NCBI GenBank assembly: GCA_946546825.1
Contig: CAMNOK010000008.1
Coordinates: 1-44,593, forward strand
Origin: an uncultured bacterium
GTDB taxonomy: Bacteria; Bacteroidota; Bacteroidia; Bacteroidales; Bacteroidaceae
Length of the DNA: 44,593 bases
Reading direction: 5' to 3'
Shown: positions 39,233-44,547 of the stretch, in pieces
Layout: every line of letters starts with the position of its first letter
Numbering within the stretch: the first letter of the stretch is position 1
Translations under genes and position numbers: made by a program
The notes under the pieces: generated by a model
Told to the model about the DNA's origin: nothing
Database searches by the model: none
Seen by the model: the letters and a program-made list of their open reading frames with translations, nothing else

Positions 39233-39298
39233 TTCCTTTTGTTTACTGCTTAATTTCTGCAAAGATACATATTTTCAATTAAAAAACGACAGAAAAAT

Positions 39299-39329
39299 TT
39301 GTTATTTTAGATAAGAAGACTTAAATTTG
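39299..39329 (+). promoter_or_regulatory. Bacteroidota-type promoter (TTG-N20-TAAATTTG) for the CHASE2-CHAT operon
   Basis: TTG 39299-39301, 20-nt spacer, TAAATTTG 39322-39329, about 45 nt before the ATG at 39375. Confidence 0.7.
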
Positions 39330-39374
39330 CAGCAAATAAGTTTAGACAGAAAGCGATAACCTCTAATCATTCAA

Positions 39375-40649
39375 ATGATGAAGATTCTTCGTTATATTTT
39401 CCATATTGATCATGCTATCATTTCATTGTTGACAATATCTATCATCGGAATATTTGTCTTCATGAGTTTCAACATATCATTTTTGAGTCCCGTGAAGCGT
39501 GCCATCGGAAGTTTTAGTATGACGAGTATCTATTATCAAATCATGGATGACGAAGAGCTGAAAGATACTTCAGACATCATTACATTGGTAGATATGACAG
39601 AATTGTCACATCGTGATAGTATTGCAATGGTGATAGAACAAATCTCTTCCATGCAGCCCCGAAAGCTTGCCGTGGATATTATCTTTGAAGGATACAAGGA
39701 CGACGTCAATGCAGACCAACGCCTTACAGATGCTTTTTTTGACTGTGCGGACAAGACGGTTGTGGCTTATAAGCTATTGGACTACAACGGAAAAGGTTTT
39801 ACCAATGCTGTTCGCTCTTTTTTTGTTGAAGATGTCCCTGTTACACAAGGTTTTACCAATGCTATGACAGATGATGCAAGGGTTGTGCGTTGTTACAATA
39901 TCAGTTACGATTATAAAGGAAGGAAGTGCTATTCACTGCCAGCTCAAATTGCTATGTCCGAAGGCATCAACCTTTCTGATAAGCCTGTAGAGCATGTCAT
40001 CAATTATTCTCCTATCCATTTTCCTGTTGTCAGTTGGAAGGATTTAAAGTATCATCCAGAACTCATCAAGGATAGAATTGTTTTATTTGGAACCACCAAG
40101 CAGGAAAGTGACATGCACTATACACCACTGAAGAAAATGTCAGGATTAGAGGTTATAGCCTATGCCGTTACATCCATGTTTGAGGGCTATGACGTGAAGA
40201 AAGCTCCTTTGTGGGTTGCCCTGCTATTGGCCTTTATTGTTGGCTATATAACAAATGCCATAGACTTTTTGTTCCGCTTGCACAGCCAAAGACGTGAAAA
40301 CTTTTTGATGGTGTTTATTCGGGAATCTAATCTTTATCTCCGCATCATCTATTTCCTTTTGATGGTTGTGGTTACATGGATAACATTCTTGCTCTATATA
40401 AAAGCTCACTATTACATCAACAGCATACTGGCTCTGAGTACCATTATTCTTATTGGTGAGGGAAGATTGATATATAAAGGATTGTTGGCCGCCATCGCAC
40501 GAAAGCACCCTTGGCCGTTGTTGAAAAAATCCCTCTATGCCCCAGAAAACTTGCAGAAAACAAATAAAACGAAAGAAGAGGTGGTTGCACCAGCGGAAGC
40601 TCTGCCGGAAGTACAAGCGATAGAAACAAACATTAATTTATCAAACTAA
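39375..40649 (+). CDS. CHASE2-domain membrane protein (N-terminal TM, extracytoplasmic CHASE2, three C-terminal TMs, no output domain recognised)
   Basis: 424 aa; IITLVDMTELSHRD, PRKLAVDIIFEG, ADKTVVAYKLL, IKDRIVLFGTTKQESDMHYTPLKKMSGLEVIAYAVTSM fit CHASE2; hydrophobic segments at both ends. Confidence 0.82.
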   Translation: MMKILRYIFHIDHAIISLLTISIIGIFVFMSFNISFLSPVKRAIGSFSMTSIYYQIMDDEELKDTSDIITLVDMTELSHRDSIAMVIEQISSMQPRKLAVDIIFEGYKDDVNADQRLTDAFFDCADKTVVAYKLLDYNGKGFTNAVRSFFVEDVPVTQGFTNAMTDDARVVRCYNISYDYKGRKCYSLPAQIAMSEGINLSDKPVEHVINYSPIHFPVVSWKDLKYHPELIKDRIVLFGTTKQESDMHYTPLKKMSGLEVIAYAVTSMFEGYDVKKAPLWVALLLAFIVGYITNAIDFLFRLHSQRRENFLMVFIRESNLYLRIIYFLLMVVVTWITFLLYIKAHYYINSILALSTIILIGEGRLIYKGLLAAIARKHPWPLLKKSLYAPENLQKTNKTKEEVVAPAEALPEVQAIETNINLSN

Positions 40650-40654
40650 AAATC

Positions 40655-41104
40655 ATGAAAAAAATCCTTTTATTTATATTGTTGAGTGTGGCATGCACCA
40701 TAAATGCACAGAACTTTATAGTCTATGCCGTAACAGGTAATGTTGTTACTATAGAAAAGAGATTAAAGAGTACAGTTAGTGTGCGCCAACATTTGGATGC
40801 AAACGTAATATTAAGTATTCCCGAGGAAGGTAGTATCCGCCTTTTCGATATTGAAACGCGGAAACTTTATACACTTAAGAATAAGTGCATGGGACCCATT
40901 TCTAAACTTATTGAAACCCAGCCCAACTCAAGTAAGGTTGTTACTCCGCAGTATTTTCGTTATATAATGAAGAATCTGCGTGGTAATATGGTTACCAACA
41001 CTTGTGAGACAGATAATGCCACAACGATCTTCCGTGATGCCAATGATTCACTATATGTTGACACCCCTGCTGAAGTTGACACTATTCCCCAAAAAGAAAA
41101 GTGA
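40655..41104 (+). CDS. Small exported protein, possibly FecR-like
   Basis: 149 aa; signal peptide MKKILLFILLSVACTINAQ; VYAVTGNVV…LDANVILSIPEEGSIRLFD resembles a FecR-type beta-strand pattern. Confidence 0.6.
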   Translation: MKKILLFILLSVACTINAQNFIVYAVTGNVVTIEKRLKSTVSVRQHLDANVILSIPEEGSIRLFDIETRKLYTLKNKCMGPISKLIETQPNSSKVVTPQYFRYIMKNLRGNMVTNTCETDNATTIFRDANDSLYVDTPAEVDTIPQKEK

Positions 41105-41169
41105 GAAACGTGCTTCCCCCCCTGCGCCGAGAAACGAGATAAGTTTTTGACTTTCTAAAGAATAAAATC

Positions 41170-44100
41170 ATGCTTCGAAAAATATTTTTTTCACTCTTTT
41201 TAGTCTGTCTGTTCCCAATAATGTCGAATGCGCAGTCGAAAGCCTTGAACAATTTGTTGAACGAGGCCCAAAAAGCAGTGCGAAAGAATAAAATTGCTCA
41301 AGCAGATAGCTTGTATCAGGCGTATGTGGATTTGTTTAAGGAGTCGAAAAACAAAAAAGACTACACCTATTCTGAAGTCCTCATTTATTTAGCCCGACGT
41401 GCTGTGAATAAAGGTTTTATAGATAAAGGAATAGAGATTCAGCAGGAGGTTATAGAGGTACGAAAAACAGCAGGCGACTGCAATAATGCTCAGTGGGCCA
41501 GCGCCGTAAGCGATTTGGCAACATTTTATGCCCAAAAGGGTGACTACGACATGGCTATCAGTACGGGCGAAGAGGCCCTGAAAATTTACAAAAAGGAGTT
41601 TGGAGAGAAGCATAATTATTATAACATCACACTGGCAAACATTGCTTCATTCTACTCAGCGCGGGGAGACAGGGATGACTATTCAAAGGCTGTGGAATAT
41701 TGTGAACGAGCCCTGAAGTATATTAGCAAGGGAACTCCTGAATACGCAAATGCCCTGAATAGTCTTGTTGTCTTCTATACTCAGGCAGGAAAGTCTGGAA
41801 AGGCAAACGAGATTGCTGCCAAGGCAAAAAAAGAAGCTAAGAAACGATTGGAAGAAGACGGTGTTCAGTTTGCAACTATTCTTAACAATCAGGCCATCAG
41901 ACTCTCTAATATGGGTAACTATATAGATGCCATAGCTTATGCAGAGGAGGCTAAGGAGGGCTTTGAGAAAGCACAAAATAATAACACGCTGCCATATGCC
42001 AAGGTGCTGACAAACTTAGCAACATTCTACACCCACCAACAAGATTATGAACAGGCAAGCCAGTTGTTACGGCAGGCCATGCCTATTATTGAAGGATTTG
42101 TAGGAAAAGAACACCCTGATTATATCCGATGTGTGTCAGATTTGTCTGCTATCAATAAAAGTTCTGGAAATCTTTCAAAGGCAGACGAATTGGCTAATGA
42201 AGCTGACAAGATGGGGCAATCTCTCCTTCAATCACAAAATATAAAATATGCCAAGGCGCTTAGTAAGCAGGGTGCAATTTTTGCTTCCAATGGTAACTAC
42301 ACTCGAGCTGTTGACCAAGAAAGGAAGGCTCTTCACATTTTTGAATTGCGTAATGATAGCATAAGTATAGCCACCTCGCTCAGCCTCATTGCCACCTATA
42401 CTTTTCATGAAGGCAATCATTTGAAAGGGAGAGATATCGCAGAAAAAGCACTTTCTATTTTCCGCAATAATGGTAGAAATAGCATTTACTATGCGCAGGC
42501 TCTCAATAATGCATCCATTCTTCACTATCATGATCAAAACTACAACTATGCAGCATGGTTAGAAAAAGAGGCCCTGCGAATTTACGATGAAAGAGACGAA
42601 CGAAATGGTTCAATCTATGCAAAGATACTGGCTAACCTCGGATTGTATAGTTTCATGGAAGATAGTGTCAGCCAGGCTATTGACTATACGCAGAAAGCTT
42701 TGGATTTGCAAAGGAAAATTCTTGGTGATGACCATCCTGATAATGTTCCTTTTTTTTATAATATAGCTGTTTACTATAATAAGGTTGGTAATCACCAAAA
42801 AGCTGAGGAAAACTATACAAAGGCTCTTGTTATGCAGGCTCATCAGGTGCAAACCAACTTTCTCCATTTAACAAGTACTGAGCGAGAGCGTTATTGGAAT
42901 GCCAAACAATATGTATTCAAGTATGCGCCAACTTTGGCATACGTCGATCGTGATAATAGCCGGATGGTAACAGATGCATATAATGCGCTACTCTTCACGA
43001 AAGGCATTCTGCTTAATTCTGACATAGATTTCCGTAACCTGCTCCGTAAGAGCAATGATGAAAAGATGTTGGAGAAATTCAACCAATTGTCTAACCTTTA
43101 TGAGCAGAAGGATGCGCTTTATAAGTTACCGGCCAATGAGCGCGGTGATATGAAAAAACTCAACCGGGAAATTTATTCGCTGGAACGTGAGCTGGTAATG
43201 GGGTGCAAGGAATACGGAAGCTTTACAGAGAACCTTAGCATCACGGCAACCGATATAGCGCAGAATCTTAATGATGATGATGTTGCTGTAGAATTTACAG
43301 ACATAGATGTTGTTGGTGTCGGGAAAACCTATGTGGCTCTATATCTCCGAAAAGATTGGAAAGCACCCAAAATTGTTAAGTTGTTTAGTGAATCAGATCT
43401 TAATGATACTATTCTTTATGGTCTTCGCCGACAGCAGGAACTGGCCATGCAAGGTAATGTGAAGATGATTTATGATAACAAGAAGTTTGGACAGCAATTT
43501 TGGGAACCTCTTCTTAGCCAACTTGATGGTGTTCGTAACATCTATTTTTCTCCGTCGGGCATCATCTATCAACTTGGTATCGAATATCTCTATTGTAATG
43601 AGGAGTCTCGCATCGGAGATTTATATAGTGTTTACCGTATATCCTCTACGAAGTCTCTGGTGAATCATAGTGAACAGCGTCCCATTAAGTCGGCAACGAT
43701 TTACGGTGGCTTGGATTATGACATGAATTTGTCTGAACTGCAGGAGCAACACAGACGTATGAGTGATTTTGACAGTTATTTAGCGCTCAATAATGATGAA
43801 AGCCATTATCTTGAAGAAGACGAGATATATTTCACTGATGAACTTCGCGCCATTGACTCTCTATCTACCAGAGGAAGTGTACGCTATCTTGCGGGTACAC
43901 TCCATGAAGCAGAGATTATAGGTGAACAACTGATGATGAACAATGTGAATACAAATATGTTCCTTCACAGAGAAGGTGTAGAAGAGTCGTTTAAGGCTCT
44001 CAATGGAAGGGAACAGGGACTCATTCATATTGCCACTCATGGTTTTTATATATCGGAGAATGAAATTAAAAAGCAAAAAAAGAGTGTTGCCTTTGTAACA

Positions 44101-44547
44101 GCAGGTGATGATACAGACACCGAAAATTCTCTGAATTTCTCAGGCTTACTGTTAGCTGGGGCCAACTATACACTCCGAGGCAACCGTGTGCCTAAGGATT
44201 TGGAAGATGGAATCCTTACAGCTCGGGAAATTGCACAAGTTGATCTTAGTGGTGCTGAACTCGTTGTGCTCTCAGCTTGTCAAACAGGATTAGGGGAGGT
44301 AAAGGATGATGGTGTGTTTGGTATTCAGCGCGGCTTCAAGAAGGCTGGTGCCAAGACTCTCCTCATGAGTTTGTGGAGCGTTGACGATAAGGCTACCGAC
44401 CTGATGATGACCAGTTTCTATGCTGCCCTCATGGAGGGAAAAACAAAACAGCAGGCCTTCCAGGAAGCGCAACAACAAGTGAAAAATCAAGGATTTATAG
44501 ATCCCTATTATTGGGGAGCATTTATCTTACTGGATGGGGTGTTTTAA
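41170..44547 (+). CDS. Exported TPR-repeat CHAT-domain (caspase-like) protease
   Basis: 1125 aa; signal peptide MLRKIFFSLFLVCLFPIMSNAQS; many TPRs; LIHIATHGFY (His957) and LVVLSACQTGLGEVKDDGVFGIQRGFKKAGAKTLLMSLWSVDD (Cys1037) form the CHAT His/Cys dyad. Confidence 0.93.
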   Translation: MLRKIFFSLFLVCLFPIMSNAQSKALNNLLNEAQKAVRKNKIAQADSLYQAYVDLFKESKNKKDYTYSEVLIYLARRAVNKGFIDKGIEIQQEVIEVRKTAGDCNNAQWASAVSDLATFYAQKGDYDMAISTGEEALKIYKKEFGEKHNYYNITLANIASFYSARGDRDDYSKAVEYCERALKYISKGTPEYANALNSLVVFYTQAGKSGKANEIAAKAKKEAKKRLEEDGVQFATILNNQAIRLSNMGNYIDAIAYAEEAKEGFEKAQNNNTLPYAKVLTNLATFYTHQQDYEQASQLLRQAMPIIEGFVGKEHPDYIRCVSDLSAINKSSGNLSKADELANEADKMGQSLLQSQNIKYAKALSKQGAIFASNGNYTRAVDQERKALHIFELRNDSISIATSLSLIATYTFHEGNHLKGRDIAEKALSIFRNNGRNSIYYAQALNNASILHYHDQNYNYAAWLEKEALRIYDERDERNGSIYAKILANLGLYSFMEDSVSQAIDYTQKALDLQRKILGDDHPDNVPFFYNIAVYYNKVGNHQKAEENYTKALVMQAHQVQTNFLHLTSTERERYWNAKQYVFKYAPTLAYVDRDNSRMVTDAYNALLFTKGILLNSDIDFRNLLRKSNDEKMLEKFNQLSNLYEQKDALYKLPANERGDMKKLNREIYSLERELVMGCKEYGSFTENLSITATDIAQNLNDDDVAVEFTDIDVVGVGKTYVALYLRKDWKAPKIVKLFSESDLNDTILYGLRRQQELAMQGNVKMIYDNKKFGQQFWEPLLSQLDGVRNIYFSPSGIIYQLGIEYLYCNEESRIGDLYSVYRISSTKSLVNHSEQRPIKSATIYGGLDYDMNLSELQEQHRRMSDFDSYLALNNDESHYLEEDEIYFTDELRAIDSLSTRGSVRYLAGTLHEAEIIGEQLMMNNVNTNMFLHREGVEESFKALNGREQGLIHIATHGFYISENEIKKQKKSVAFVTAGDDTDTENSLNFSGLLLAGANYTLRGNRVPKDLEDGILTAREIAQVDLSGAELVVLSACQTGLGEVKDDGVFGIQRGFKKAGAKTLLMSLWSVDDKATDLMMTSFYAALMEGKTKQQAFQEAQQQVKNQGFIDPYYWGAFILLDGVF

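Follow-up and report, generated by a model that had tools for sequence, protein, structure and literature searches.

The Lap switch joins an inner-membrane sensor, a periplasmic cysteine protease and a substrate with a retention module (PMC13090378, PMC6890996). The adhesins cut by LapG and DvhG carry a beta-stranded retention domain, a helix, a cleavage site made of DP and [T/A/P]AAG and an unstructured segment, an anatomy that was first described in the Marinomonas primoryensis adhesin, and DvhG itself has the residues D316-C317-E318 (PMC13090378). Here we describe a three-gene operon at the end of a 44,593-nucleotide stretch of DNA (the window, which is one whole contig, CAMNOK010000008.1) from a Prevotella-type gut bacterium. 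It encodes a CHASE2 membrane protein, a small exported protein called MID here, and a large exported protein with tetratricopeptide repeats (TPRs) and a CHAT domain. The operon is a real, conserved and modular cassette, and the chances seem evenly balanced that it is a Lap-like extracytoplasmic proteolytic switch, with CHASE2 as the sensor, the TPR-CHAT protein as the protease and MID as the likely substrate. The likeness would be one of working, by analogy; there is no sequence-level match, and membership of the Lap family is not claimed. The cassette differs from Lap in having neither LapD, the receptor of cyclic di-GMP, nor a giant adhesin, and the protease in the window is of another fold, CHAT and not the transglutaminase-like fold of LapG. 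Domain searches found no GGDEF or EAL domain in the CHASE2 sensor of the cassette.

Other described systems share single parts with this locus. The Csx29 protein of Craspase, a type III-E CRISPR system, likewise has an array of TPRs and a CHAT caspase-like domain with a His/Cys dyad, and the substrate of Craspase is encoded next to the protease (PMC9729208). However, Craspase is cytoplasmic and activated by RNA, whereas the CHAT protein of the cassette has a predicted signal peptide and lies beside a membrane sensor, and the overall similarity between the two proteins is low (11–14% identity). No CRISPR domain was found in the three cassette genes, CRISPR genes not having been searched genome-wide, and the cassette lacks the gRAMP/Cas7-11 and Csx30 partners of Craspase. 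The distinction from Craspase that an earlier sequence-only reading of this DNA had drawn holds. In Trichodesmium, a CHASE2 domain with four transmembrane segments is fused to a metacaspase, the caspase domain of which is predicted to be cytoplasmic (PMC3501461). CHASE2 is thus joined to a caspase-fold peptidase as here, but the cassette peptidase is a separate protein and probably exported, so that signalling would run in the opposite compartment. Membrane-bound orthocaspases have likewise been drawn with cytosolic catalytic parts in a review (PMC7475262). The BiofilmReg system of Burkholderia places a CHASE2 histidine kinase, with a cytoplasmic output and a response regulator, beside a periplasmic FecR protein, and the ligands of CHASE2 are unknown (PMC5192318). 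There, as in the cassette, a beta-domain protein with a signal peptide accompanies the CHASE2 sensor; the cassette sensor, in contrast, has no kinase output and MID has no FecR match. In the open-access literature we found no work joining CHASE2 with a CHAT domain, although a subscription paper may exist, and searches for caspases in the periplasm or elsewhere outside the cytoplasm led only to papers on Craspase, on other defence and on eukaryotes. No published description of this cassette was found in that literature.

A conserved cassette around a CHASE2 protein

As the open reading frame (ORF) coordinates bear out, the three genes are co-directional, with gaps of 5 nt between CHASE2 and MID and of 65 nt between MID and CHAT, and the promoter-like site claimed upstream is present. 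The features of the cassette are as follows.
39298..39329, + strand: promoter-like site of the Bacteroidota type, TTTG-N20-TAAATTTG (consensus match only)
39375..40649, + strand: CHASE2 inner-membrane protein, 424 amino acids (ORF, Pfam)
39579..40238, + strand: CHASE2 domain PF05226, predicted to be extracytoplasmic (Pfam)
40655..41104, + strand: MID, exported protein of 149 amino acids with beta domain (20-95), helix (98-109) and disordered tail
41018..41050, + strand: MID tail motif ATTIFRDANDS, residues 122-132, putative cleavage or docking site
41033-41035, + strand: codon of MID Arg127, invariant in 21/21
41170..44547, + strand: TPR-CHAT protease (caspase/separase-like), exported, 1125 amino acids
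41170..41235, + strand: predicted signal peptide of the TPR-CHAT protein, MLRKIFFSLFLVCLFPIMSNAQ
43489..44529, + strand: CHAT domain PF12770, residues 774-1120 (Pfam)
44038..44040, + strand: codon of catalytic His957 (alignment of homologues)
44278..44280, + strand: codon of catalytic Cys1037 (alignment of homologues)

Each protein of the window was searched against 149 relatives, and the same trio in the same order was found in three of them (G014, G067 and G023). In four further genomes of the same genus, another exported protein stands in the peptidase slot beside CHASE2 and MID: a caspase C14 protein with Sel1 repeats in two of them, and in the other two a transglutaminase-like protein, which in one case is a fusion with MID. 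For an unbiased survey, the CHASE2 Pfam model alone was run on 400 genomes of the window's family, which gave 53 further loci, where gene types were assigned by local profile searches. MID lies on the strand of CHASE2 in 47 of the 53, and at least one cysteine-peptidase gene is in view in 44 (CHAT in 22, C14 in 15 and transglutaminase-like in 17, some loci having two); two of the nine loci without a peptidase (L126 and L164) run off their contigs. Within 6 kb of CHASE2, 591 kb of sequence hold 61 genes of these three types, and the 207 kb lying further out hold 3, so that the density is about seven times higher near the sensor. A second scan, of named genomes, was started from CHAT, the alignment of 16 CHASE2 sequences being too diverged for that use. 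It gave 26 loci from Prevotella, Paraprevotella, Prevotellamassilia, other Bacteroidaceae and Muribaculaceae, and CHASE2, MID and CHAT stand in this order in 20 of them, which is the co-occurrence that the sequence-only reading had named in advance as its test. The culturable Prevotellamassilia timonensis An873 is among the carriers of the trio (L189). In the window's genome itself, a single CHAT relative and a single CHASE2 were detected, and the two are adjacent.

The CHASE2 domain spans residues 69-288 of the 424-residue protein (Pfam, E 1e-22), which has one transmembrane segment at the N-terminus, the CHASE2 domain, about three more transmembrane segments and a short C-terminal tail. Domain searches found no kinase or cyclase output domain in it, as had been claimed. 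The CHASE2 proteins of these loci have about four transmembrane segments, and their C-terminal tails are 11–80 residues long in 62 of 62, which leaves no room for a cytoplasmic output domain; the sensor must therefore act on something in the membrane or the periplasm.

The CHAT domain of the third protein (E 2e-48) is preceded by many TPRs and has His957 in the motif IATHGF and Cys1037 in LSACQTG, exactly as predicted. Both residues are conserved in all 26 intact homologues (L162 has a split gene), and a further set of 25 shows no variation at either; an alignment of the catalytic residues was another test that the sequence-only reading had named. The significant profile match and the placement of His and Cys in their motifs put the protein in the CHAT family, as a predicted peptidase. 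The AlphaFold2 model of the protein has a mean predicted local distance difference test (pLDDT) score of 81.8, and its best fold matches in the PDB are human separase (9hn0), then DdvA (8rot, 8rw5), with Csx29 also among the best. Separase belongs to clan CD and its substrates have Arg at P1 (PMC4626109), while the Asp of separase that binds this Arg is replaced by Lys in Craspase (PMC9729208). Asp1077 of the window protein aligns by eye with that Asp. Separase is, however, eukaryotic and intracellular, and a P1-Arg specificity deduced from its S1 Asp is not claimed, the aligned residue being unconserved in the cassette CHAT family. DdvA is a transmembrane protein and the anti-sigma factor of DdvS, an extracytoplasmic function (ECF) sigma factor (PMC4374960). 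As the second-best match it suggests that a membrane-linked relative may exist, but the cassette has no ECF factor. One Muribaculaceae genome has several TPR-CHAT paralogues with neither CHASE2 nor MID nearby (L194, L195 and L196, on contigs CALUMI010000014.1, CALUMI010000005.1 and CALUMI010000027.1).

The N-termini of MID and CHAT in the window are alike, starting with K/R, which is followed by a hydrophobic stretch and then an A-Q boundary, and in both proteins they resemble the signal peptides that had been proposed. Among the homologues, signal-peptide-like N-termini are found in 26 of 27 CHAT, 53 of 53 MID, 18 of 18 C14 and 23 of 24 transglutaminase-like proteins, where the N-termini were judged by a hydropathy rule and not by SignalP. 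All parts of the cassette thus appear to point to the periplasm. With the gene linkage, the likely signal peptide and the aligned catalytic residues all found, the sense-and-cleave module proposed for the far side of the inner membrane is well supported as a hypothesis.

Exchange of the peptidase

The peptidase slot of the cassette is swapped between the unrelated folds CHAT, C14 and transglutaminase-like, which is a new point of this work, beside the anatomy of MID, and makes the finding larger than was first claimed for CHAT. On a tree of 62 CHASE2 rows, the peptidase label needs 10 changes, against a mean of 29.5 when shuffled, and none of 200 shuffles was as low; the tree is a quick one and near-copies inflate the clustering. 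The protease type is therefore inherited with the sensor, yet several replacements have taken place, one instance being the CHAT clade (L156, L160 and L162) that is nested in a transglutaminase-like clade with 99% support. The transglutaminase-like proteins have a Cys-His-Asp triad in 24 of 24, with D-C-E around the Cys, a D-C-E/H/D set like that of LapG and DvhG. D-C-E-like motifs are common in transglutaminase-like proteins, so that the likeness to DvhG is a lead.

The peptidases of the other loci vary in several ways. Transglutaminase-like loci often encode, in addition, a caspase C14 protein that is exported and about 500 residues long, thus having two cysteine-peptidase folds each (L122:3822-5354, where the protein is of LRR_5 + C14 type, L127:1748-3298, L138, L140, L149, L152, L155 and L158). 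In L165 (9277-12201), an exported protein with WD40 and caspase C14 parts fills the slot beside CHASE2. Behind the CHASE2-MID pair of L144 (9904-11298) is a protein of 464 residues that weakly matches the caspase type and has at its C-terminus a beta domain resembling that of autotransporters; it is possibly a caspase-like protein bound to the outer membrane.

MID and its arginine motif

MID belongs to no Pfam, NCBIfam or PADLOC family. It had been called FecR-like, and this name is rejected at the level of sequence, because a search of the window's genome with PF04773 gave nothing even with the limit at E<=10 and no profile search gave a FecR hit. Among 21 orthologues only Met1, Ala18-Gln19 and Arg127 are invariant, and Asp131 and Ser132 are conserved in at least 90%. 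Ala18-Gln19 is the presumed signal-peptidase site, which leaves Arg127 as the sole invariant residue of mature MID. In the structure model the beta domain (20-95) and the helix (98-109) are confident, while 113-128 and 134-143 are disordered, with pLDDT below 50 in the segment of Arg127. The one invariant mature residue would therefore sit in a flexible tail. The order of parts in the model (beta domain, helix, conserved site, disordered segment) appears to be that of the Lap substrates. The PDB entry that MID matches best in fold, 5ix9, is a domain for anchoring at the cell surface (E 0.15, probability 0.99, 10% identity), which we take to be the Marinomonas primoryensis adhesin domain.

The motif around the Arg, [A/T][T/S]xxR, is also found in the MIDs of C14 loci, in the linker between the domains of MID-transglutaminase fusions and in MIDs with no linked protease, and the MIDs of transglutaminase-like loci have SDPATVTR at its position. 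It was read sequence by sequence, since a single global alignment of MID misplaced the motif of the fused forms. A strict form of it occurs in 35 of 57 MID tails, against 10 in shuffled tails; this pattern was picked after the alignments had been viewed, so that the enrichment is descriptive, and it misses the TTIFR form of the window's own MID.

Small exported proteins of these loci show further variation. In four loci (L119, L126, L135 and L137, of genus g247), CHASE2 and MID are paired with no peptidase gene in view and a G-S-x-S-R motif is kept; their protease may be elsewhere or lost, and L126 is cut by the contig end. In a divergent CHASE2 clade, a second small exported family of about 200–260 residues replaces or accompanies MID (L163:1633-2238, L164:1381-1992, L165:8480-9265 and L166:8329-8985), with a similar G-x-x-x-x-V-G stretch near the N-terminus.

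A proposed periplasmic switch and its alternatives

We infer that the three proteins meet in the periplasm, that CHASE2 activates the protease, that MID is the substrate and that a downstream effect follows. CHASE2 would be an inner-membrane sensor acting in the membrane or the periplasm, in the place of LapD, and the exported TPR-CHAT protease would be its output, in the place of LapG, inactive or localised until CHASE2 responds. MID, with a periplasmic beta domain and a flexible tail, would most likely serve as the protease's own substrate, or else as an inhibitor resembling one, and the [A/T][T/S]xxR motif around Arg127 would be the place of cutting or docking. The downstream effect may be a remodelling of the envelope or of adhesins, with the OmpA-family protein found beside many loci. 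The sequence-only reading had left MID as adaptor, inhibitor or substrate, and the invariant Arg motif makes substrate the most likely of these roles, the interaction itself being presumed. More broadly, and tentatively, somewhat short of an even chance, these loci would form an undescribed family in Bacteroidota, in which a CHASE2 receptor has periplasmic proteolysis as its output, through an exchangeable cysteine protease (CHAT, C14 or transglutaminase-like) and one kind of substrate cut at an Arg motif.

Several points weigh against this picture. The Arg motif is retained in seven MIDs with no peptidase in view, and may thus serve CHASE2 binding or a protease encoded elsewhere. The position of Asp1077 varies in orthologues (D/E/N/Q/R/V), so that a preference for cleavage at Arg finds no support in the enzyme. 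The match of MID to 5ix9 is weak at its E value and identity, no sequence profile connects MID to retention modules and no convincing PDB relative was found, and the MIDs of CHAT loci have a short tail past the motif and no attached adhesin. Among the transglutaminase-like proteins of these loci there is no match to the LapG Pfam family, and the sequence profile of this family finds neither a solved LapG nor a convincing PDB relative. Export, finally, was judged from sequence by a rule other than SignalP.

MID might instead be an adaptor that joins sensor and protease, its tail motif docking on CHASE2 or else on partners such as peptidoglycan or OmpA, while an unlinked envelope protein is cut. 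The persistence of the motif at CHASE2-MID loci with no peptidase in view would fit this role, as would the OmpA-family gene adjoining many loci and the fact that MID accompanies CHASE2 (47/53) more constantly than does any single protease type; but cleavage sites more typically show such a residue, invariant and within a linker predicted to be disordered, and the motif also stands between the domains of the MID-transglutaminase fusions and in the MIDs of C14 loci, so that we consider the adaptor rather unlikely. Securin holds separase (PMC9729208), to which the CHAT model is structurally related, and MID is small, co-expressed and encoded ahead of the protease, as a securin-like pseudosubstrate would be that inhibits the exported protease and is freed when CHASE2 binds its ligand. 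Such an inhibitor is improbable, since MID is kept where the protease is absent, and one MID family serving unrelated protease folds is hardly expected of a specific inhibitor.

The genes could also be linked only by envelope localisation or co-regulation, with CHAT as a TPR scaffold or acting on an unrelated substrate, outside the control of CHASE2. Many TPR-CHAT relatives in the order do come from genomes where no CHASE2 relative was detected, and most CHASE2 in the phylum sits in proteins of about 730 residues with an extra domain. The clustering of peptidase genes around CHASE2, the invariant catalytic residues and the repeated replacement of CHAT by other cysteine peptidases at the same place nevertheless make mere linkage very improbable, and the proteolytic switch stands as a plausible and testable mechanism.

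The surroundings of the cassette were also compared. An exported beta-barrel protein of the OmpA family is encoded directly downstream of CHAT, 65–174 nt after the trio, in the three closest relatives (L050:15819-16970, L051:11571-12719 and L052:6046-7179), and about 14 other CHAT loci, such as L120, L124, L130, L132 and L146, have a gene of this family immediately ahead of CHASE2. In the window, the contig ends 46 nt past the CHAT gene and the 3' side of the operon is beyond view. In the three closest relatives the cassette lies next to similar genes, resembling GyrB/ParE and acetyltransferases, as seen by eye. The window has four promoter-like sites of the TTTG-N20-TAAATTTG form against 0.5 expected, a number reached in none of 100 shuffles. 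The cassette had also been described as AT-rich, which is true of the window (40.5% GC against 50.7% upstream) but fails as a property of the cassette, as no more than 13 of the 24 homologous loci have a lower GC content than their flanks and the difference averages 1.6 points; AT-richness as a sign of a mobile or horizontally acquired cassette is rejected on this ground. The anti-phage defence profiles of PADLOC 2.0 gave no match among the three cassette proteins, and an identity as a defence system was dropped.

The caspase-like signalling known in bacteria, that is, Craspase and the orthocaspase models of reviews, has been placed in the cytoplasm. The swapping of CHAT, C14 and transglutaminase-like proteins in one slot is a natural experiment on the function of the module, and it points to proteolysis itself, not one fold, as what is conserved. 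If the reading of the cassette as a switch is true, a caspase-type cascade would run in the periplasm with a sensor built into it, and CHASE2 would gain a directly testable output. Transmembrane signalling in abundant bacteria of the gut and rumen would then have a new mode, conserved and periplasmic, with a receptor of its own and a predicted substrate.

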